The notes beneath the pieces are model-generated. The model worked only from the letters and a program-made list of their open reading frames with translations, was not told the origin of the DNA and made no database searches. From the NCBI GenBank assembly GCA_021848045.1, contig JAJZNC010000060.1, positions 62,001-126,000 of the forward strand: 64,000 nt of DNA, in the 5' to 3' direction. Of the stretch, positions 5,169-51,940 are shown in pieces. This DNA comes from an archaeon. Its GTDB lineage: Archaea > Thermoproteota > Nitrososphaeria > Nitrososphaerales > Gagatemarchaeaceae. Each line of letters begins with the position of its first letter. The stretch's first letter is position 1. The translations under genes and the position numbers were made by a program.

Positions 5169-6683
5169 CTAGCCCTTGGCGCCGGGACCCTGTGCCAGGA
5201 ATATCCGGTGGTAGAGGTCGTCCCCGTAGCTGGTCGGCAGCGGCTCTCCCGGCAGCACCCTGAAGGTTCGCTCCCCATTCTCGAGCCTCTGCGCGCGGAG
5301 GAAGGCGGCGTTCGGCGTCCCCTTCTCGTAGAGCAGGTGGGCGAACTCGTACTGGTGGGTTACGAAGAACACCTCGACCCTCCTCTCGAGTAGGGCGGCG
5401 ACTATCTGCCTCGAGATCTCCGAGCCTTCCCTCTCGTTTGTGGAGGCGAAGGACTCGTTGAACAGGACCATGCAGTCAGGGGATAGACTGTCGACGATCT
5501 TGCTCATCCTGCCTAGCTCCTCGTCAAGCTTCCCGCTCTTCATCGAGGAGTCCTCCTCGCGGGTGAAGTGCGTGAAGACTCCTGTGCAGATGTCGGCATG
5601 TAGAGACTCCCCCGGGGCGAAGGCGCCCGCCTGCATCAGGAGCTGTGAGATGCCCACGCTCCTGAGGAAGGTCGACTTGCCACCCCTGTTCGCCCCGGTG
5701 ACCACGACCAGGTCCTTGCCCTCCGCCTCGAGGTCGTTACCCACCACCCTCTCGTCCCGCCTAAGGGCGAGGCAGGGGTCGTAGAGACCCTTGAAGGCGC
5801 GCGACCGCCTGCCCCTCTCCGCGGGGGTCGGGAAGCAGACCGGCTCGCCCCTCGCGGCGAGCTGGTCCCTCAAGTTCATGCAAGCTACGTAGAACGCGAG
5901 CTCGTTCCGGAGAGAGACGAAAAAGCCCAGCAGGTGATCGGAGGACTGGGCGAGGGTGTTGGCCAGCCCGTTTATCCCACGGTCCCTCAGCTCGGCCATC
6001 ATCTCGGGCCCGGTCTGGTCGTTGGTGTTGAGCGTGAAGGTGAACTGGCCCGTCTTCCTCCCGAAGAGCCTCCTCCCCTCCTTCCTGTCCTCGGGCTGCC
6101 TGCACAGGGCGTAGCCCGTGCCCTTGTTCCCCTCTCCCAGCTCGGCGCTGATCAGCGTCCCCTCCCCGAGCTCCAGCTCCTTGAGGTGCCCCTCGATGCT
6201 GGCGAGGTAAGAGTCCGAGATCTCGCCCTGGACCATCTCGAATAGCCCCTTGAAGCCGTCTGACTCGAACCTCCCCGCGTGCTGGTCGACAATCGCCCGT
6301 AGTTCCTTGAGCTTGCTGAAGAGCATCTTCAGGAGCCTGACAGACCGCTGGAACGTCTGGTCGGCAGACTTGTACGCGTCGTTCCAGGCCCAATCTTGCT
6401 TCTCCTTGGCGATGGCGTCCGCTGAGAGCTTGAACAACTCGGCCACGACGTCTGGGTTCTTCAGGCAGTCCTTGAGGACGCCTTGCCGGAACAGGATCGA
6501 GTCGACGTCAAGGAGGCTCGTCAGGAGGACCTTCTTCGCGAGGTCGAGGAGGAACTTGTCCTTCCCCGCCATCGCCTTGAAGAGCGTCTCGAGCTGGAGG
6601 TCCCGTGAGAGGTCGTACTCGTTGGCAGGGAGCTTCCCCTCGAGGTCTAAACCCCGGTCCCTGTGCATGAGGAGGACCTTCAC
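5169..6683 (-). CDS. MutS-family ATPase (paralog B)
   Basis: TGANRGGKSTFLRS Walker A, MVLFNESFASTNEREG; MutS core plus ATPase. Confidence 0.8.
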   Translation of the reverse strand: MKVLLMHRDRGLDLEGKLPANEYDLSRDLQLETLFKAMAGKDKFLLDLAKKVLLTSLLDVDSILFRQGVLKDCLKNPDVVAELFKLSADAIAKEKQDWAWNDAYKSADQTFQRSVRLLKMLFSKLKELRAIVDQHAGRFESDGFKGLFEMVQGEISDSYLASIEGHLKELELGEGTLISAELGEGNKGTGYALCRQPEDRKEGRRLFGRKTGQFTFTLNTNDQTGPEMMAELRDRGINGLANTLAQSSDHLLGFFVSLRNELAFYVACMNLRDQLAARGEPVCFPTPAERGRRSRAFKGLYDPCLALRRDERVVGNDLEAEGKDLVVVTGANRGGKSTFLRSVGISQLLMQAGAFAPGESLHADICTGVFTHFTREEDSSMKSGKLDEELGRMSKIVDSLSPDCMVLFNESFASTNEREGSEISRQIVAALLERRVEVFFVTHQYEFAHLLYEKGTPNAAFLRAQRLENGERTFRVLPGEPLPTSYGDDLYHRIFLAQGPGAKG

Positions 6684-8227
6684 TGCCGGATGCGCTCCTT
6701 TATCCGTTCGTAGGAGAGCTGATGCTTGTCGGCTATCGCCATCGCAAACGCCAGGCCGTCGGCAGGCTTCCTCGTTATCTTGAACGTCCTCAGCTCTGGG
6801 TTATCCGGGAGCACCGTGCTCATGACGCTGACCGCCTTGTCCATGGTCGAGAGCTCGTCGATGAAGGTCACGTAGACGCAGAGAGCGTCGAGCTGGATCA
6901 CCCGCTCGAGGACCTTCCTACCCAGGAAGACCGCGTCGCGGAGGGTGCTCGAGCTGAACAGCTCGTTGATTATCACGACGCTCCTCGGGGTGCACGCGTC
7001 GAGGATGGAGTGCACCCTCATCAGGTCGTCCTCGAGCCTGCTCCTGAGGTCGTCGAAGTTCTCCTCCCTCTCGAAGTGTGTGAATATCCTGTCGAACAGG
7101 AACAGCTTCGCGCTCGTGCCAGGCACGGGGAGGCCCAGGCAGGCCAGGTGGTGTAGCTGTCCGAATGCCCTGGCGAAGGTGCTCTTCCCGCCCTGGTTGG
7201 GGCCGTTAACGACGAAGACCCTCTCGTTGTCCTTCAGGAAGAAGTCGTTCGTGACGAGGGGAGACTTTTCTCGGACGAGCTTGTTCGCAAGGGCGAGGTC
7301 GAAGCCGTTGTGGCTCTCCACCTGCTTGCTGTCGGAGACCACAGGATAACAGAACCTGAGCCCGGTGCCCGTGAACTGCGCGACGAACTCGTGGTATGCG
7401 ATGTAGAACTGCACCTCGCGGTCGAAGTCGGCTACGGTCTGGTCCAGGAACTCCTTGTTCCTGGCGCAGTACTCGTCCAGGCTCTGGAAGACCTCGGGAT
7501 AGAGCTTTGCGACGAACTCCAGGGCGGCTTCCTCCACGTGGTTCACCTCCGGGTAGCCGGTGAACCTGATGCGGTAGTCCTTCGCCGCGCCCTCCCTGAA
7601 CTTCTCGAAGGCTTTCTCCACCTCGACGCTGTAGTCCTCCTCCCCCTCGTACTTGCGCACCGTGAACTGGTTGTTGGTCTTCATGAGGAGGCAGTATCTT
7701 GACGCTGCCAGGTCGGCCCTCATCTTCTCGGTCTCGGCGCGGAGTGCCGCAAACCCGGGAGACTCAAGGTAGCTCAGGAGGAACCCCCGGAAAGACAAGA
7801 AGCCCCGGGACTCTAGGTCGAGCGCCGCGAGGTCAGCCCCGAGGCGCGAGACCGCCTCGCAGTATGCCTCGACGCCGTTCAGGAACCAACCCTGCCTGTT
7901 GTACCTGTTGTGGACGTTCTCCGCGAGCTGCCTGGCCCGACGCATGGAGCGCATCCCCTGCGCGAAGGCTTCGATGGCGTCGCGGAGGGACTGGCTCTCC
8001 AGCTCCCTCATCGCCTGGTGACGGTACTCGATTGCCTCGGAGCTGTTCAGGGTGGCCATGAACAGGGTGCCGAGGCGGTACTCCTGTCTGCCGACCAGTA
8101 TCGAGTCGACTATCTGGTCAAGATGAAGGTCGACGACGAAGTCCTGGACTCCCGTCGAGGGCGGCTCGCTGCCGTCCTCCGCCTTCTCGAAGAGGATGCT
8201 GCGGAACGGCCGGGTGGTGTTGCTCAT
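6680..8227 (-). CDS. MutS-family ATPase (paralog A)
   Basis: VNGPNQGGKSTFARAFGQ Walker A, VVIINELFSSSTLRDAV; overlaps both neighbours. Confidence 0.8.
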   Translation of the reverse strand: MSNTTRPFRSILFEKAEDGSEPPSTGVQDFVVDLHLDQIVDSILVGRQEYRLGTLFMATLNSSEAIEYRHQAMRELESQSLRDAIEAFAQGMRSMRRARQLAENVHNRYNRQGWFLNGVEAYCEAVSRLGADLAALDLESRGFLSFRGFLLSYLESPGFAALRAETEKMRADLAASRYCLLMKTNNQFTVRKYEGEEDYSVEVEKAFEKFREGAAKDYRIRFTGYPEVNHVEEAALEFVAKLYPEVFQSLDEYCARNKEFLDQTVADFDREVQFYIAYHEFVAQFTGTGLRFCYPVVSDSKQVESHNGFDLALANKLVREKSPLVTNDFFLKDNERVFVVNGPNQGGKSTFARAFGQLHHLACLGLPVPGTSAKLFLFDRIFTHFEREENFDDLRSRLEDDLMRVHSILDACTPRSVVIINELFSSSTLRDAVFLGRKVLERVIQLDALCVYVTFIDELSTMDKAVSVMSTVLPDNPELRTFKITRKPADGLAFAMAIADKHQLSYERIKERIRQ

Positions 8228-9543
8228 CGCGCGACCCACCCCTCGACGATCTCTCGGTGACCGGCGAGCTCGCGGCCGTACCTGATGAGCTGCTTGGTGA
8301 GGTGTCTCTGCGCCCGCGGGGACGGCAGGTAGGTCCCCGGATGGATGCGGGAGGGGGGTCCGTGCTCGACGCGGAGGGCGGCGGTCCTGTGGCCGCACGT
8401 CCTGCACTGGTATCCCTTGCCTCTTCCCTCTGACTTCATCCCAGAGCTGCAAAGAGCGCATCTTGGCCTGGCTTTAACTGCTTGGTGGAGCGCGAGCACC
8501 TCGATCTTCTCCACGTTCAGGGCTGCGGAGTTCCTGGGCGTCGCCCTCCTCACCCCGCCTGAGACTCGCACAGAATCACCCGTCCTCAGCAGGCGCGCCG
8601 TGCGCTTGAGGTCGCCCGAGGGTTCGTAGACCATGCACCGCAGGTCGGCTCCGGCGACGCGGAGCGCGAGCTCGAGGTGCCCCCCCTCGCGCGCGTCTAG
8701 CGAGACGACCTCTCCCTCCAGCCAGCCCGCCGAGTAGGCCTTGAGCGGGACCGAGAGCCGTGGTTTGAGGTGGGCGTCGGTGCACTGGTTGGTCGCGTAG
8801 ACCATGTGGCCTAGCGGCACCTCCCCGGTCCTTACCCTGCGGAACGCCTCGAGGACCGCCCCCGGTGAGTCCCCCCTCACGCCGGCGAGGACGGGGTCGG
8901 GCCCTGTGGGAGCGAGGAGGACCCGGCCGGACTCGTGGTCGTAGTTGTTGAACGTGTGCGGGAATGTCTCAGCCTCCATCTCGACTACAGACTCCCGAAG
9001 AACCGACCTGAGAGTACCGCACCTCTCAGGCCTCCTGTACGCTATGAGCTCGTAGGTGTGGTCGTCCGAGTCGCAGGAGAACCCTAGGCTCGCGGCCGCC
9101 CCCACCGCCCCCATCCCGTTCCCGAGGAGCGTGTGCCTAAGCCCCATCCTGACCAGCTCGTGGATGACGCCGCGGTAGCTCACCATGCCGCTCAGGGCCC
9201 GGAGGTACAGCTCCCTGAAGTAGGGGGCGGCGGCCTCTTCTTTCGAGGCCATCACCAGCCCGGGGTTCGCGCCGTTGCCGACGTCGGCCTCCTCGTCGAG
9301 GAGGGCCTCGGCTGTGTCGAAGGCCCTGTCCCGCAGCGACTCCGAGGTGGGCTCGAACTCAACGCAGACCGCCGCGTTGCCCCTCGTCTTGAAGGGCACG
9401 TTTGGGTTGAGCCGCACCAGCCGGGGGTAGGACGGGATCCGGCACCCCATCCTGGCCAGCTCGCAGGTTATGAGGTAGCCCAGGTGGGTCGTGCAGTGGC
9501 CGAACCGGGAGTCGGTGTCGTCCATCCCTAGGAGGTACCGCAA
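8224..9543 (-). CDS. tiaS: tRNA(Ile2) 2-agmatinylcytidine synthetase TiaS
   Basis: MRYLLGMDDTDSRFGHCTTHLGYLI...; C-terminal zinc ribbon CALCSSG..CRTCGHRT. Confidence 0.88.
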   Translation of the reverse strand: MRYLLGMDDTDSRFGHCTTHLGYLITCELARMGCRIPSYPRLVRLNPNVPFKTRGNAAVCVEFEPTSESLRDRAFDTAEALLDEEADVGNGANPGLVMASKEEAAAPYFRELYLRALSGMVSYRGVIHELVRMGLRHTLLGNGMGAVGAAASLGFSCDSDDHTYELIAYRRPERCGTLRSVLRESVVEMEAETFPHTFNNYDHESGRVLLAPTGPDPVLAGVRGDSPGAVLEAFRRVRTGEVPLGHMVYATNQCTDAHLKPRLSVPLKAYSAGWLEGEVVSLDAREGGHLELALRVAGADLRCMVYEPSGDLKRTARLLRTGDSVRVSGGVRRATPRNSAALNVEKIEVLALHQAVKARPRCALCSSGMKSEGRGKGYQCRTCGHRTAALRVEHGPPSRIHPGTYLPSPRAQRHLTKQLIRYGRELAGHREIVEGWVAR

Positions 9544-10943: not shown

Positions 10944-11321
10944 TCAGCCCGAAGGCGCCACGCCGATGCTCCGCTCGATCTCCTTCTCCCTGGCGCGGGC
11001 CTCTCTGACCTGCCGCCCGAGCCGCGAGGCGAAGAGGTAGTTCACCACACCGACATAGAGCCAGGCGAAGGTCACCAGGATCAGGACGGCCTCGAGGGCG
11101 AGGAGCGTCGGGTCGAGGAGGTTCACCGTTACCACTCTTGTCCCCGTGGCGAAGGGGGTGATGACCTGGGCGAAGTACGAGGCGAGGAGGAGGAACGCCA
11201 CGCCAATGGTGATTAGGGACAGGACCCGTATCCTCGCCTGGCCGCTCTCTATGTGGTGGACGAACTCCTCATGGGCGTCGAGAATCGCGACCCTGGCCTG
11301 GTCCCGGCTTTCCTCAGCCAC
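10944..11321 (-). CDS. Membrane protein, two TM segments
   Basis: IRVLSLITIGVAFLLLASYFA... and LLALEAVLILVTFAWLYVGVV. Confidence 0.6.
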   Translation of the reverse strand: MAEESRDQARVAILDAHEEFVHHIESGQARIRVLSLITIGVAFLLLASYFAQVITPFATGTRVVTVNLLDPTLLALEAVLILVTFAWLYVGVVNYLFASRLGRQVREARAREKEIERSIGVAPSG

Positions 11322-11702: not shown

Positions 11703-11957
11703 CTAGGGGGCCAGCCTGTTCCAGACCTTCTTCCAGTCCCTGTTGAGGTCGGCGCCCTGCCCGGTTATGAAGTACATCTCGCGTCCCTCCTGTGCCTGGA
11801 CCTTGATCAGCTGCTTGGCTATCAGGAAGGACGCGAACTCCGAGAACTTGTTGAAGTTGAGACCCAGCCCCTGCGCGAGCCTTGTCGGGCCCCTAGGCCC
11901 GTCCAGGAGCAGGTCGAGTATCTCCATGTAGATGAGGACGTTGGGCCTCCTCTTCAA
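11703..11957 (-). CDS. Small winged-helix transcriptional regulator
   Basis: YMEILDLLLDGPRGPTRLAQGLGLNFNKFSEFASFLIAKQLIKVQ; lies between two copies of the shared operator. Confidence 0.7.
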   Translation of the reverse strand: MKRRPNVLIYMEILDLLLDGPRGPTRLAQGLGLNFNKFSEFASFLIAKQLIKVQAQEGREMYFITGQGADLNRDWKKVWNRLAP

Positions 11958-12049: not shown

Positions 12050-12071
12050 ACCTAAGATACTTATCTTAGGT
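12050..12071. promoter_or_regulatory. Palindromic operator upstream of the HerA-like operon
   Basis: ACCTAAGATA-CT-TATCTTAGGT perfect 10-bp inverted repeat, then TATA-like CTATAAGG at 12081-12088. Confidence 0.65.
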
Positions 12072-12109
12072 GAGGAACTCTCTATAAGGTCGGACCGTCC
12101 TCTTCCGGC

Positions 12110-13333
12110 GTGACTTTCGGGAACTCTGTCTGGTTGGGATTCACCAGGAACGGGGGGAGGTTCGAGGTCAAGCTCGACGACCTCAAGAACGGCATCGCGA
12201 TGATGGGACAGGGCTCCAACCAGCTCGCAGGCATGGCAGCCTGCGCGTGCCACGAGGCGGGGCTCAAGACGCTCCTGGTGGACCTTGACGGCGGCGCGTC
12301 CGACGGGCTCTCCGGATACATCGACGAGTGCGACGTGTCTTATTTCCTCTACGACTCGCTCAGGATCGAAGAGAACCCCGTCGTCCACGCCCAGATGATA
12401 GCGGGCGCGTATTCGACCGCGCTAGAGCTCTCCTTCGAGCAGGAAGCGAGCCTGAACTCCATCGCCCAGATAATCGCCAACGAGCGGGGGGTGGCCAGCC
12501 CCGCGTCCCTCGCAGACCTGATACAGTCGCCCGACTCGGCCAAGGGGCGCGCGGTCGACAGGCTGAGGGTGAGGCTGGATGCCCTCCGGTCGCTCAACCT
12601 CGTCGGCGAGAAGCACGTGGTAAAGCGCCTCGTTCAGAAGAGCGCAATCCTGAGCTTCAGGAACGCCGGGTCGCCCGAGGCGGCGGAGACGGCGGTGGCC
12701 TTGTTCCTGGCGAAGCTAATCGCTGTCGCAGGCTCGGGCGAAGTCGCCGGACCCGACGTGGTTGTGCTCACCGAGGCCAACCGCCTCTTCAAGGAGAGGC
12801 CGGTCTTCAGGAGGAACCCCCGCTTCCTCACCGCGTTCGTCTCTTCCCCGGTGGCGAAGGTACTCGCCTCTGACGAGGCCTACGGGCTCGACAAGGAGTA
12901 CATGGACACCTGCTCGGTGAGGATACTCTCGAGCGCGGCATGGAACGGCTCAGGCAGGGGCGGCCTGGTCCTCACCCCGAACATGTACATGTTCCAGAAC
13001 CCCTCGTACGGCTCTCGCGAGGTCTTTGTCCCGAGGGAGTTCGAGCGGCGGAAGGGAACGACCCTGACGGTGGCCCCCGTCGCGCCTGACGAAGACGCTA
13101 TGCTGGCGCGCAGGATACTCGAGGAGGTCTCCGCTTTCGGCGGAGCGACCCGGGCGTCCCTGCTGTCGTTCCTGGCGTCTGAGTTCGACAGGGACATCCT
13201 CGAGAGGGCGTTCGACCGGCTCCAGAGCGAGGGCTACGTGGCGGTCGAGCGCCAGGAAAGGTCGGGGAGGGCGATCCACACACTCTCGCTCACGGAGAAG
13301 GGTCGCGCAGTTCTCGGGAGGCGGCAGGGTTGA
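12110..13333 (+). CDS. HerA/VirB4-like ATPase with degenerate P-loop and C-terminal winged helix
   Basis: MMGQGSNQLAGMAA in Walker A position, VVVLTEANRLF HerA-like Walker B, C-terminal wHTH. Confidence 0.55.
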   Translation: MTFGNSVWLGFTRNGGRFEVKLDDLKNGIAMMGQGSNQLAGMAACACHEAGLKTLLVDLDGGASDGLSGYIDECDVSYFLYDSLRIEENPVVHAQMIAGAYSTALELSFEQEASLNSIAQIIANERGVASPASLADLIQSPDSAKGRAVDRLRVRLDALRSLNLVGEKHVVKRLVQKSAILSFRNAGSPEAAETAVALFLAKLIAVAGSGEVAGPDVVVLTEANRLFKERPVFRRNPRFLTAFVSSPVAKVLASDEAYGLDKEYMDTCSVRILSSAAWNGSGRGGLVLTPNMYMFQNPSYGSREVFVPREFERRKGTTLTVAPVAPDEDAMLARRILEEVSAFGGATRASLLSFLASEFDRDILERAFDRLQSEGYVAVERQERSGRAIHTLSLTEKGRAVLGRRQG

Positions 13334-14370
13334 TCCCCCAGCTCGAGAGGCTGCAGACGGGCTGCCATGCACTCGACCTCCTCACCGACGGCGGGCTCCC
13401 GACAGGGACGATAACCCAGATCTTCGGGGAGAAGGCCCTCGGCAAGAGCATCCTCTCCCTCCAGGCCGCCTACTCCACCGTCGCGGCAGGGCACAGCGCG
13501 GTGATACTCGACACGGAGCAGTCCTACTTCAGCTACCTGGTGGGCTACCGGAGGCCGGGCTTCGAGCAGAGGTTCGGCGACAAGGTGCAGGTGAAGGAGG
13601 TCAAGCTCCAGAGGACGACGCGCTCGGCGAGGAAGAAGGACATGCCGGTCTCCAGGAGCGAGCTGGTCAATTCCCTGAGCAGTACTCTCGACCGTATCGG
13701 CGTGTCCTACAACGACAACCACCTCGCGGCCATCGCGGAGGTGCTCTCGCCAGACTTCACCATCGACCTAGGAGAGGACGAGAAGGAGCCGGCCATCTTC
13801 GTCGTCCAGCTCCCCGACGTCATCGACCTCCTGGCCCTGCACGGGCACGACGTCCAGAAGATCGTCTCCGAGGGAGGCAGAGTCGAGCTCAGGCTAAAGT
13901 CCAGCCCGGTCTACGAGTCCGCGCTCCACAACATGGTCGAGCAGACCAAGGCCAAGCTCCTGGTCTACGACTCGATCTCCGCCCCGTTCAAGGCGTCGTT
14001 CTTCGGCACGCAGGACCTCCCCGCAAGGAGCGCGGGGATGGCGATATTGCTCGCCCACGCGCAGCGCCTCTGCATCCAGTACGGGATAGCGGTAGTGGTG
14101 ACGAGCCACGCCTCGATCAACCCCACGGCGGCTTGGGACAGGGGCAAGCCCTACGGCGGGATAACCCTGGGGCACGAGGCGAAGTTCAGCTTTGAGCTGA
14201 CCAAGCACATGGCGAAGAGGGGGGAGCTGGTGAAGGAGAACTCTGTCAACCCCGACGAGTGGATTGCCAAGGAGAAGGACGGCAGGGCGCTCTGGGTGCA
14301 CAGGCACCCCGCCCTCGAGGACTGGTCGAAGTTCGGACACGCCTACATCGACGACGAGGGGTTCCACTGA
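13330..14370 (+). CDS. RadA/RadB-like recombinase-family ATPase
   Basis: LQTGCHALDLLTDGGLPTGTITQIFGEKALGKS; AVVVTSHASINP; TTG start overlaps previous stop (TTGA). Confidence 0.7.
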   Translation: MIPQLERLQTGCHALDLLTDGGLPTGTITQIFGEKALGKSILSLQAAYSTVAAGHSAVILDTEQSYFSYLVGYRRPGFEQRFGDKVQVKEVKLQRTTRSARKKDMPVSRSELVNSLSSTLDRIGVSYNDNHLAAIAEVLSPDFTIDLGEDEKEPAIFVVQLPDVIDLLALHGHDVQKIVSEGGRVELRLKSSPVYESALHNMVEQTKAKLLVYDSISAPFKASFFGTQDLPARSAGMAILLAHAQRLCIQYGIAVVVTSHASINPTAAWDRGKPYGGITLGHEAKFSFELTKHMAKRGELVKENSVNPDEWIAKEKDGRALWVHRHPALEDWSKFGHAYIDDEGFH

Positions 14371-15431
14371 TGGGCTGGTTCCTCAAGGTCGTCGCCCTGC
14401 TTCTTGCTTTCGTCCTTGTGGGTGCGGGGACGTGGTCGCTCGCGCTCATCATCTTCGCAGCGCTCCTCCTCCCGCCGGTCTTCAGGCTGCTCCATAGGAG
14501 CAAGCAAGCGCCCCAGACGACCGGGAAGAAGGGCCGGCTCCCCGCCAGGTACCTGCTGGCAGGAACCCTCCTCGTGCTCGCTTTCGCGGGATACCTCGCC
14601 CACGGCAGCTTCTCCCCCCTGGCGTTCGGCACCCTCGGCCTTGTCGTGCTGCTCTGGGGAAGGCTCGCAGTGCTCGCGGTCAGCTCCAGCCTGAAGCCGG
14701 TCAACGAGTCGATCCTTCTGAGGTCGACGCGCCTCCAGGCGTCGTGGGCAGGGGTCGCCAGAGTGACGTCCATCACCCGCGACCTTGGAAGGGCCCTAGC
14801 CGGAGTGTCGGGGACAGTCATCCTTTCGCTCTCCGACGTCCCTGCGGTCTACGTGGTGGTGGAGAGGAAGGCGTGGAGCGAGAAGGCCGCGGAGGAGGAG
14901 GTTCTCTCGGCGTTGAGGGAGCTCACGTGGTCGCTGGCCCCGCGGGGGGCGTATCTCTTGCCCCTCGACTCCCAGCAGGCCTACGCTCTTTTCCAGCCCT
15001 CGTTCGAGGCCGCCAGGTTCGCCGAAGCAGACCTGACCCACACTCTCGCCTCGGGCTCGCACGACCTGATTTCGCTGCGGCAATCCGGGGGCTTCGCACG
15101 GGCCCTCGGCCTGTACAGGAGGACGGGCGGGGTGCACGATGGAAAGGTGAGGATCCCCCTCCCTGAGAGGGACCTCTCCCGTCAGCCTGTCTTCCTGGAG
15201 GTGTTCAAGGCCATCGGGGGCAGGCTGTCGTCGCCATCGCCAGACCAATACACGGCGTTCCTCAGCAGCCTCTATGCCACCAGCGGGGAGCCGGTGGGCA
15301 CGAGGGTCTTCGACGGCGGAACCGCCACCCAGTCAGGCATGATGCTCGTGAAGTCGCAGGGGAGCCCGCCGGTCGAGCTGAGCAAGGCCCAGCTCAGGGC
15401 CGTGGTAAGGATCTACGAGAAAGCGCGGTAG
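14370..15431 (+). CDS. Membrane-anchored hypothetical protein of the same operon
   Basis: N-terminal TM segments; ATG overlaps the previous stop (TGATG). Confidence 0.65.
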   Translation: MGWFLKVVALLLAFVLVGAGTWSLALIIFAALLLPPVFRLLHRSKQAPQTTGKKGRLPARYLLAGTLLVLAFAGYLAHGSFSPLAFGTLGLVVLLWGRLAVLAVSSSLKPVNESILLRSTRLQASWAGVARVTSITRDLGRALAGVSGTVILSLSDVPAVYVVVERKAWSEKAAEEEVLSALRELTWSLAPRGAYLLPLDSQQAYALFQPSFEAARFAEADLTHTLASGSHDLISLRQSGGFARALGLYRRTGGVHDGKVRIPLPERDLSRQPVFLEVFKAIGGRLSSPSPDQYTAFLSSLYATSGEPVGTRVFDGGTATQSGMMLVKSQGSPPVELSKAQLRAVVRIYEKAR

Positions 15432-50656: not shown

Positions 50657-51940
50657 TTGGCCCGTCCAAGGCACAAGCAGCTCCTAAGGGACCCGGATGT
50701 GGAGAGATGGTTCAACAACCTGGCGCGAGGAAGCGTAATCACTGCGGAGGAGCGGCTCCGGCGGCTGGGGCGTTTCTGCAACGCGACAGGCTACACGCCG
50801 CAGACGGTCGTCGATTTCAAGTGGAAGGACCCGGAGGGCTTCGACAAGTTCATGATGGACTATGTTGACGACTCCTTGAAGAAGGGGGAGAAGCCGGCCC
50901 AGGTGAAGAACAACCTCGTCACCATGAGATCGTGGCTGGGTCACTTTGGGCTGAAGATAGAAAGGAGGATCAAGCTGCCTGTCTCGGACTATGTAGACGA
51001 GGTCGTCCCCACAAAGGAACAGCTCGCCCAGCTCCTCAGACATTGCGACACAAGGGCCAGAGCGATTGCTGCGCTAATGGCCTTCTCTGGATTGCGACCG
51101 GAGAGCCTGGGGAACTACTTGGGCAACGACGGCTTGAGGCTGAGCGATCTCCGCGAGCTGGAAGTCAAGAAGAAAGATGGTGCGGTGGAGTTCTCCAAAG
51201 TCCCGACGATTGTTGTAGTCAGGAAGACGCTCAGCAAGGCCCGGCACCAATACTTCTCTTTCCTGCCGGAGGAGGGATGCCAGTACCTGAAGGAGTACCT
51301 CGAGGCGAGATTGAGGGACGGTGAGAAGCTGCAGCCTGACAGCCCATTGATTAGCCACACAAGGGCGAGCAGCAGGCTTTCATTCCTCAGGACTACGAAG
51401 CTCGCTTGGGAGGTGAAACTGGCGATCAAGGCGACGGGGTTCACATGGAGGCCTTACGTGCTGCGGTCGTACTGCGACACAGCCTTTGATATCGCGGAGT
51501 CGAAGGGGTTCATCTCCCACCCCTGGCGGCAGTTCTTCATGGGACACAAGGGCGACATCGAGGCGAGGTACTCGACCAACAAGACGAGGTTGCCACCCGA
51601 CATGATAGAGGAGATGCGAGGAGCCTACAAGCGGTGCGAGGAGCTTCTTCAGACCTCCAAGGGAGAGGCGAGCAGCGAGAAGATTAAGGAGACCTTCAAG
51701 GAACAGCTACTGCTGGTCGCCGGGTTCAAGCCGGAGGAAGTAGAGAAGATGGACCTGACGCAGATAACCAACGAACAGCTCCAGGATATAGTGAGGCAGC
51801 GCTTGCTGGGGGCGATGGTCAACAACGGCTCGAGGCAGAGGGTCATCAACACGGGGGAGGTGGAGCACTACATCCAGCAAGGATGGGAGTACGTTGCCCC
51901 GCTCTCGAACGACAGAGTGATTCTCAAACTCCCAATCTGA
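50657..51940 (+). CDS. Tyrosine recombinase/integrase
   Basis: MAFSGLRPESLGN (catalytic Arg), YVLRSYCDT, FFMGHKGDIEARYST; TATA GTTTAAATAC upstream. Confidence 0.87.
   Translation: MARPRHKQLLRDPDVERWFNNLARGSVITAEERLRRLGRFCNATGYTPQTVVDFKWKDPEGFDKFMMDYVDDSLKKGEKPAQVKNNLVTMRSWLGHFGLKIERRIKLPVSDYVDEVVPTKEQLAQLLRHCDTRARAIAALMAFSGLRPESLGNYLGNDGLRLSDLRELEVKKKDGAVEFSKVPTIVVVRKTLSKARHQYFSFLPEEGCQYLKEYLEARLRDGEKLQPDSPLISHTRASSRLSFLRTTKLAWEVKLAIKATGFTWRPYVLRSYCDTAFDIAESKGFISHPWRQFFMGHKGDIEARYSTNKTRLPPDMIEEMRGAYKRCEELLQTSKGEASSEKIKETFKEQLLLVAGFKPEEVEKMDLTQITNEQLQDIVRQRLLGAMVNNGSRQRVINTGEVEHYIQQGWEYVAPLSNDRVILKLPI

Follow-up and report, generated by a model that had tools for sequence, protein, structure and literature searches.

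What does an archaeal operon do in which relatives of two kinds of DNA-associated ATPase are encoded together with a membrane protein? ATPases that pump, of the HerA/FtsK type, normally belong to other machines than those of the RadA type. In the window analyzed here (the whole stretch of 64,000 nucleotides), members of both groups are encoded side by side. The genome is a MAG of Thaumarchaeota group I.1c from the Ca. Gagatemarchaeum clade (1.6 Mb, 88% complete), and the hosts of the trio belong to a group of archaea from soils and hot springs about which little is known. Gagatemarchaeaceae, group I.1c and f_UBA183 in GTDB are the same group (PMC10640624).

The P1-P2-P3 operon

12110-13333, plus strand: P1, GTG start, 407 aa; HerA/VirB4-like domain, predicted to be catalytically dead, with a C-terminal PadR-like winged helix
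13330-14370, plus strand: P2, TTG start, 346 aa; RadA-family ATPase
14370-15431, plus strand: P3, ATG start, 353 aa; predicted membrane protein

All three ORFs are open, with an overlap of 4 nt at the P1/P2 junction (TTGA) and of 1 nt at the P2/P3 junction (TGATG). The original prediction, made for this locus before the present analysis, had emphasized these stop/start overlaps; they are real, the coordinates given for them were correct, and they recur across relatives. It had also matched the trio to no known system, in agreement with comparisons against Pfam, NCBIfam, PADLOC and PHROG, and no earlier description of the trio was found among open-licence PMC papers.

Two further regions of the window were noted.

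50657-51940: 427-aa ORF, tyrosine recombinase-like by eye, where G+C drops from about 63% to 53-56%
6680-9543, minus strand: ORFs, of which one has a MutS-like ATPase at its end (motif NGPNQGGKST) and the adjoining one resembles the tRNA(Ile2) agmatinyl synthetase family (GMDDTDS motif at its start), both by eye

The former suggests an integrated element that would extend from about 50 kb to the end of the window (64000).

P1 has the fold of a HerA-type ATPase and is predicted to be inactive

About aa 1-320, plus strand: HerA/VirB4-like domain (AlphaFold, Foldseek)
12206-12232, plus strand: lost P-loop site (GQGSNQLAG, aa 33-41)
13082-13330, plus strand: PadR-like winged helix (about aa 325-405)

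The AlphaFold model of P1 (pLDDT 86, 12 homologues supplied) shows a HerA fold and not an unrelated one. Against the PDB, Foldseek placed HerA at the top (9x1m, E 7.7e-10; 4d2i, E 8.5e-9) and also matched the C-domain of DndH, VirB4 and TrwB (VirB4/TrwB E 1e-6 to 3e-5). Within its own genome, P1 is closest to an intact HerA-like ATPase of 589-599 aa with a DUF87 domain, to which it was connected by profile-profile comparison (E 1.8e-7 over about 200-270 columns), while the controls (RadA, RadB-like, KaiC-like, T2SSE, two other DUF87 proteins and a reversed control) gave 0.03 or worse. As judged from these profiles, P1 has a specific kinship with the intact HerA-like ATPase that these genomes encode; a derivation from one of the genome's other DUF87 proteins (L002, L003) was rejected, the profile comparison not being significant. 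Model, structural best match and profile match together uphold the earlier view of P1 as a degenerate HerA-like protein.

Both motifs that had been singled out in P1, GQGSNQLAG and VVVLTEANRLF, are present in the sequence. The second had been read as a retained HerA-like Walker B, but this part has to be withdrawn, since Thr occupies the position of the first acidic residue and the relatives carry PQAG, SEAH, SDAH or TGAH. GK[ST] is absent from the P-loop site in 19 of 19 relatives aligned. Both Walker A and Walker B are lost in these 19 P1 sequences, which cover three families and possess neither a P-loop Lys nor a consistent Walker B acid. On its sequence, P1 is thus predicted to be HerA-like but without catalytic activity, and ATP-driven translocation by P1 alone, without a P-loop, appears implausible. 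If P1 cannot be the motor, a machine driven by ATP must have P2 as its ATPase, a protein of the RadA type and not of the HerA pump type.

Searches of P1 with Pfam and NCBIfam returned nothing beyond a weak C-terminal winged helix. The winged helix proposed earlier is indeed C-terminal and PadR-like, as indicated by weak profile matches (best PadR E 0.0012, in 6 of 12 members; PDB PadR E 0.034) and by the AlphaFold model, in which helices and two strands are predicted in the expected order.

P2 is an intact RadA-family ATPase with a private insertion

13543-13926, plus strand: insertion of ~125 residues (about aa 72-199), placed after the DTE strand and before Walker B

P2 matched Pfam Rad51 at 6e-18 and RadA in the PDB by profile, and it carries a Walker A (GEKALGKS), the DTE glutamate and a Walker B (LLVYDS). 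Pfam, alignments and tree concur with the original prediction of a RadA-like protein with a GEKALGKS P-loop and a long insertion. No aligned P2 sequence has lost Walker A, the DTE glutamate or Walker B; GK, the D/S of Walker B and the DTE glutamate are invariant, and in family f19 Walker A reads GPYQAGKT. On these motifs, P2 is predicted to be the only member of the trio that binds and hydrolyzes ATP.

The insertion, which includes the conserved stretch DLLxLHG...VSxGGRVELRL, is kept in all P2 and is absent from RadA, RadB and KaiC-like proteins. It is flanked by the two regions that known models recognize, i.e., aa 6-71 (KaiC/RadB models) and aa 200-293 (best match of the Rad51 HMM). P2 starts about 10 residues before the core and lacks the N-terminal domain of RadA. 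In a tree with RadA, RadB-like and KaiC-like proteins, in which the comparators came from the same archaeal family and two of them from the genome of the window, P2 formed its own clade with moderate support (89/88) and did not group with RadA. The L1 region reads TQDLPAR versus GRGxLxxR, and DNA binding by P2 is uncertain because the residue aligned to the DNA-binding Arg of Rad51 is not conserved; the L2 region is partly like that of Rad51, with a near-invariant YGG and an invariant Lys. P2 carries His where RadA has Gln (TNQ).

P3 is a predicted membrane anchor

aa 3-104, plus strand: TM region of P3, four predicted N-terminal helices (AlphaFold, pLDDT 81)

The proposed membrane anchoring of P3 is in line with the AlphaFold model, in which the N-terminal TM helices are followed by a cytoplasmic alpha/beta domain. 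The C-terminal end carries a motif conserved in the alignment, V-x-L-S-x-x-Q-L-R-x4-I-Y, of which V-x-L-S-x-x-Q-L-R is common to family f18; the protein at the P3 position in f19 is a TM protein of 124-130 aa only. No significant fold match to P3 was found in the PDB (Foldseek) or among viral folds, and no family in Pfam. The idea that P3 corresponds to the N-terminal domain found in VirB4 or in the pilus HerA described below was discarded (Foldseek VirB4 chains E 0.03-0.17, no profile match).

Conservation and distribution

Strong matches to P2 occur in 37 of the 46 genomes of the window's family (f1), plus one fragment at a contig edge. The order P1-P2-P3, usually with overlapping stop and start codons, is found in the window and in 25 further loci of the family, a count in which a few entries are the same record twice and one locus (L032) stops before P3. 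Beyond this family, the class contains P2 orthologues in four others (f18, f20 and f24 with E < 1e-70; f19 weaker, 1e-26 to 1e-30). The gene order recurs in f18 and f20, where the gene upstream of P2 is P1-like over its full length (profile E 6e-8 and 7e-14), and more weakly in f19, where that gene is P1-like by its winged helix only (E 2e-4). Family f24 has the P2-P3 pair, with no P1-like ORF recognized upstream of P2 in its single locus (L155). A multi-TM product is encoded downstream of P2 in all four families. Since the order of the genes and the coupling of stops and starts are seen again in 25 family loci and in other families, the arrangement is not a matter of chance.

The expectation that the triple would be conserved across archaea held within the family and in f18 and f20, more weakly in f19, and for the P2-P3 pair in f24. 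With the P2 profile and the P2 insertion as queries, samples of ~350-400 genomes from the phylum at large yielded nothing outside the class; these samples apparently missed the divergent f18-f24 genomes too, so that rare or weak homologues elsewhere are possible. IMG/VR contained no relatives according to the P1 and P2 profiles; together with the absence of PHROG matches (P1, P3) and of a viral fold (P3), this led to the rejection of a viral origin of the trio.

A few MAGs hold two or three copies of the triple; mostly there is one copy in the same setting. Locus L105 (G033:C66, 8793-11868) is a third, diverged copy in which P1 is split into two ORFs and P2 contains a stop. It is apparently a decaying duplicate, in a MAG with 6% contamination. 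Such multiple copies, one of them decayed, could be expected of an anti-virus defense system built on a HerA-like protein, and HerA-like proteins do occur in several defense systems, solved examples of which are among the Foldseek matches of P1. This reading is nevertheless the least probable of those considered here and was set aside, since PADLOC matches were no better than noise; the predominance of single copies in the same setting and the lack of a nuclease, another effector or any recognized defense neighbor also speak against it.

Upstream region and neighboring genes

10944-11321, minus strand: divergent gene for a two-TM protein (125 aa)
11703-11957, minus strand: divergent gene for an HTH_45 winged-helix protein (84 aa; Pfam HTH_45 8.1e-10)
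12050-12071: 22-bp perfect palindrome ACCTAAGATACTTATCTTAGGT, putative operator directly upstream of the TATA-like box
12082-12089, plus strand: TATA-like box CTATAAGG, about 21-28 nt upstream of the start codon of P1

The HTH_45 and two-TM genes accompany the trio in all family loci examined, usually in divergent orientation and sometimes with 2-5 kb between them and the trio. Comparable A/T-rich boxes lie at a similar distance from P1 in many relatives. The palindrome is unique in the genome, with one other site at 3 mismatches, and none of 2000 shuffled versions of the intergenic region reached it. Three relatives carry an identical or related palindrome at the same distance, whereas the remaining ones show other dyads or no perfect one, and the upstream regions in f18 contain no clear dyad. 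In f20 (L153, L154, L156), P1 is preceded by a conserved element of its own, roughly TTAGCTAA followed by GTTCGAA or TTTCGAA, which replaces the window-type palindrome. A palindrome shared with the HTH_45 gene was considered and rejected: in locus L112, where the genes are 2 kb apart, it stays with P1 and is absent from the HTH_45 promoter. The palindrome therefore belongs to the P1 operon, which probably has its own regulator.

That regulator might be P1 itself. In a membrane-linked device for transcription control, the winged helix of P1 would bind the palindrome that precedes its own genes and might bind further sites, P2 would serve as an ATP switch, and P3 would sense or tether. The winged helix, the unique palindrome just upstream of the promoter and the dyads at similar positions in some relatives fit this explanation; yet one strong site in the genome would mean pure autoregulation, f18 has no clear dyad, and the separate HTH_45 gene beside the family operon could encode the regulator. 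We consider such a device improbable.

Co-distribution with a pilus-linked HerA-like ATPase

The gene of the intact HerA-like ATPase to which P1 is related lies ~2 kb from the gene of a T2SSE (pilus/secretion) ATPase in 13 of the 15 genomes checked. Among 355 genomes of the class, this pilus HerA was found only in f1, f18, f19, f20 and f24, the same five families that possess P2. Five genomes from other families of the same order have neither P2 nor the pilus HerA, and both are missing from the nearly complete family member G018. Within the family, G020, G021 and G025 carry the triple without a detected pilus HerA, and the reverse applies to G001, G003 and G027. The co-distribution may reflect few evolutionary (loss) events and is a lead, not proof. 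At L176 and L178 (G024, G023) and in G000:C54:4292-8517, single-TM pilin-like ORFs and a TFIIB-like ORF are located near the HerA-like/T2SSE locus, which could encode an undescribed pilus for DNA exchange or secretion.

The kinship of P1 with the pilus HerA and the shared families also suit a regulator of type IV pilus or secretion assembly or gating rather than a DNA machine, in which P2 would act as an ArlH-like RecA-fold ATP switch, P1, as a dead paralogue of the motor, would dock on or cap the live HerA-type ATPase, and P3 would be the membrane platform. RecA/KaiC-fold ATPases are known to regulate archaeal T4P and archaella (PMC4858521). Against this stand the position of the trio outside the pilus locus, with no pilus genes adjacent, and the nature of P2, which is nearer to RadA than to ArlH/KaiC (profile matches to the latter were far below the cut-off); moreover, the winged helix of P1 would be left unexplained. 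A pilus regulator is a rather unlikely explanation, but the most probable of the rivals to the reading preferred below.

A tentative model of the trio

The reading that we prefer, with reservations and at somewhat less than even confidence, is that P1, P2 and P3 form one membrane-anchored complex with the dead P1 as scaffold and P2 as ATPase, most likely engaged in DNA handling at the membrane, e.g., in connection with a pilus. The complex itself, its DNA binding, the direction of the process and the pilus link are what we infer. P3 would fasten the complex to the membrane on its cytoplasmic side, and P1 would be a scaffold that has kept the HerA fold, its winged helix binding or recognizing DNA. 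With P1 as its platform, P2 might work as a switch or loader powered by ATP; it would not build RadA-type filaments because it lacks the RadA N-terminal domain. The likeliest task would then be found with DNA at the membrane, which could be received there or prepared for recombination, in conjunction with the type IV pilus of HerA type that the same families possess. DNA exchange with this pilus is the most attractive task by analogy with the Ced and Ted systems, where proteins like HerA occur alongside recombination functions (PMC9905601).

To our knowledge, no DNA-uptake system has been described for Nitrososphaeria outside the ammonia oxidizers. A bolder proposal, which we regard as rather doubtful, is an undescribed membrane-bound DNA machine of non-ammonia-oxidizing Nitrososphaeria, in which a RadA-type ATPase would drive or gate a dead HerA-type protein on a four-helix anchor for DNA exchange. 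That a conserved operon in several archaeal families joins a dead HerA to a working RadA relative and to a membrane anchor of its own suggests a new way of dividing the work between scaffold and engine at the archaeal membrane. For a clade about which little is known, it offers a concrete set of genes in which to look for a part in DNA uptake, in tethering the chromosome or in controlling pili.

Comparison with known systems

HerA, which acts with NurA and translocates dsDNA as a hexamer, shares the HerA/FtsK-type ATPase fold with P1, but P1 lacks Walker A and B as well as the N-terminal barrel domain and has an additional winged helix; no NurA or other nuclease gene was found beside the trio, where P1 is accompanied by P2, P3 and, in f1, the HTH_45 and two-TM genes. 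The pilus-locus HerA-like ATPase resembles P1 by its significant profile match and its family distribution; in contrast to P1, it has an intact P-loop, an extra N-terminal domain and T2SSE nearby. VirB4, CedB and TedB (T4SS, Ced, Ted) are comparable in that P1 matches VirB4/TrwB structures and has a membrane partner in its operon. They are, however, active ATPases that work with a VirB6/CedA channel and a VirB2/CedA1 pilin, whereas P1 is predicted to be dead, P3 matches no PDB fold significantly and no pilin gene was recognized beside the trio.

RadA/Rad51 has the same core as P2, including Walker A/B and the DTE glutamate. It differs by an N-terminal HhH domain and an FxxA polymerization motif, both missing in P2, which in turn has the ~125-residue insertion, His for the Gln of TNQ, an altered L1 and a separate clade. 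The PolB2-iRadA-PPB2 mutasome is likewise encoded by an archaeal operon with a short RadA-like protein that lacks the N-terminal domain (PMC4104785, PMC11791011), and the trio might on these grounds be a divergent DNA-damage complex with P2 as its RadA-like subunit. Such a complex is very unlikely and is contradicted by gene content and by the intact P2 site: no PolB2 or PPB2 genes lie beside P2 at the loci examined, the operon has no polymerase, a membrane protein is always present, and P2 keeps the ATPase site that iRadA has lost. PADLOC models gave noise-level matches only. The trio also differs in its protein families from the ArlH/ArlI/ArlJ archaellum motor, is free of archaellins and has a HerA-type partner that is predicted to be inactive; the two nevertheless form a loose parallel, in that a RecA-fold ATP protein is combined with a motor-fold protein and a membrane platform.
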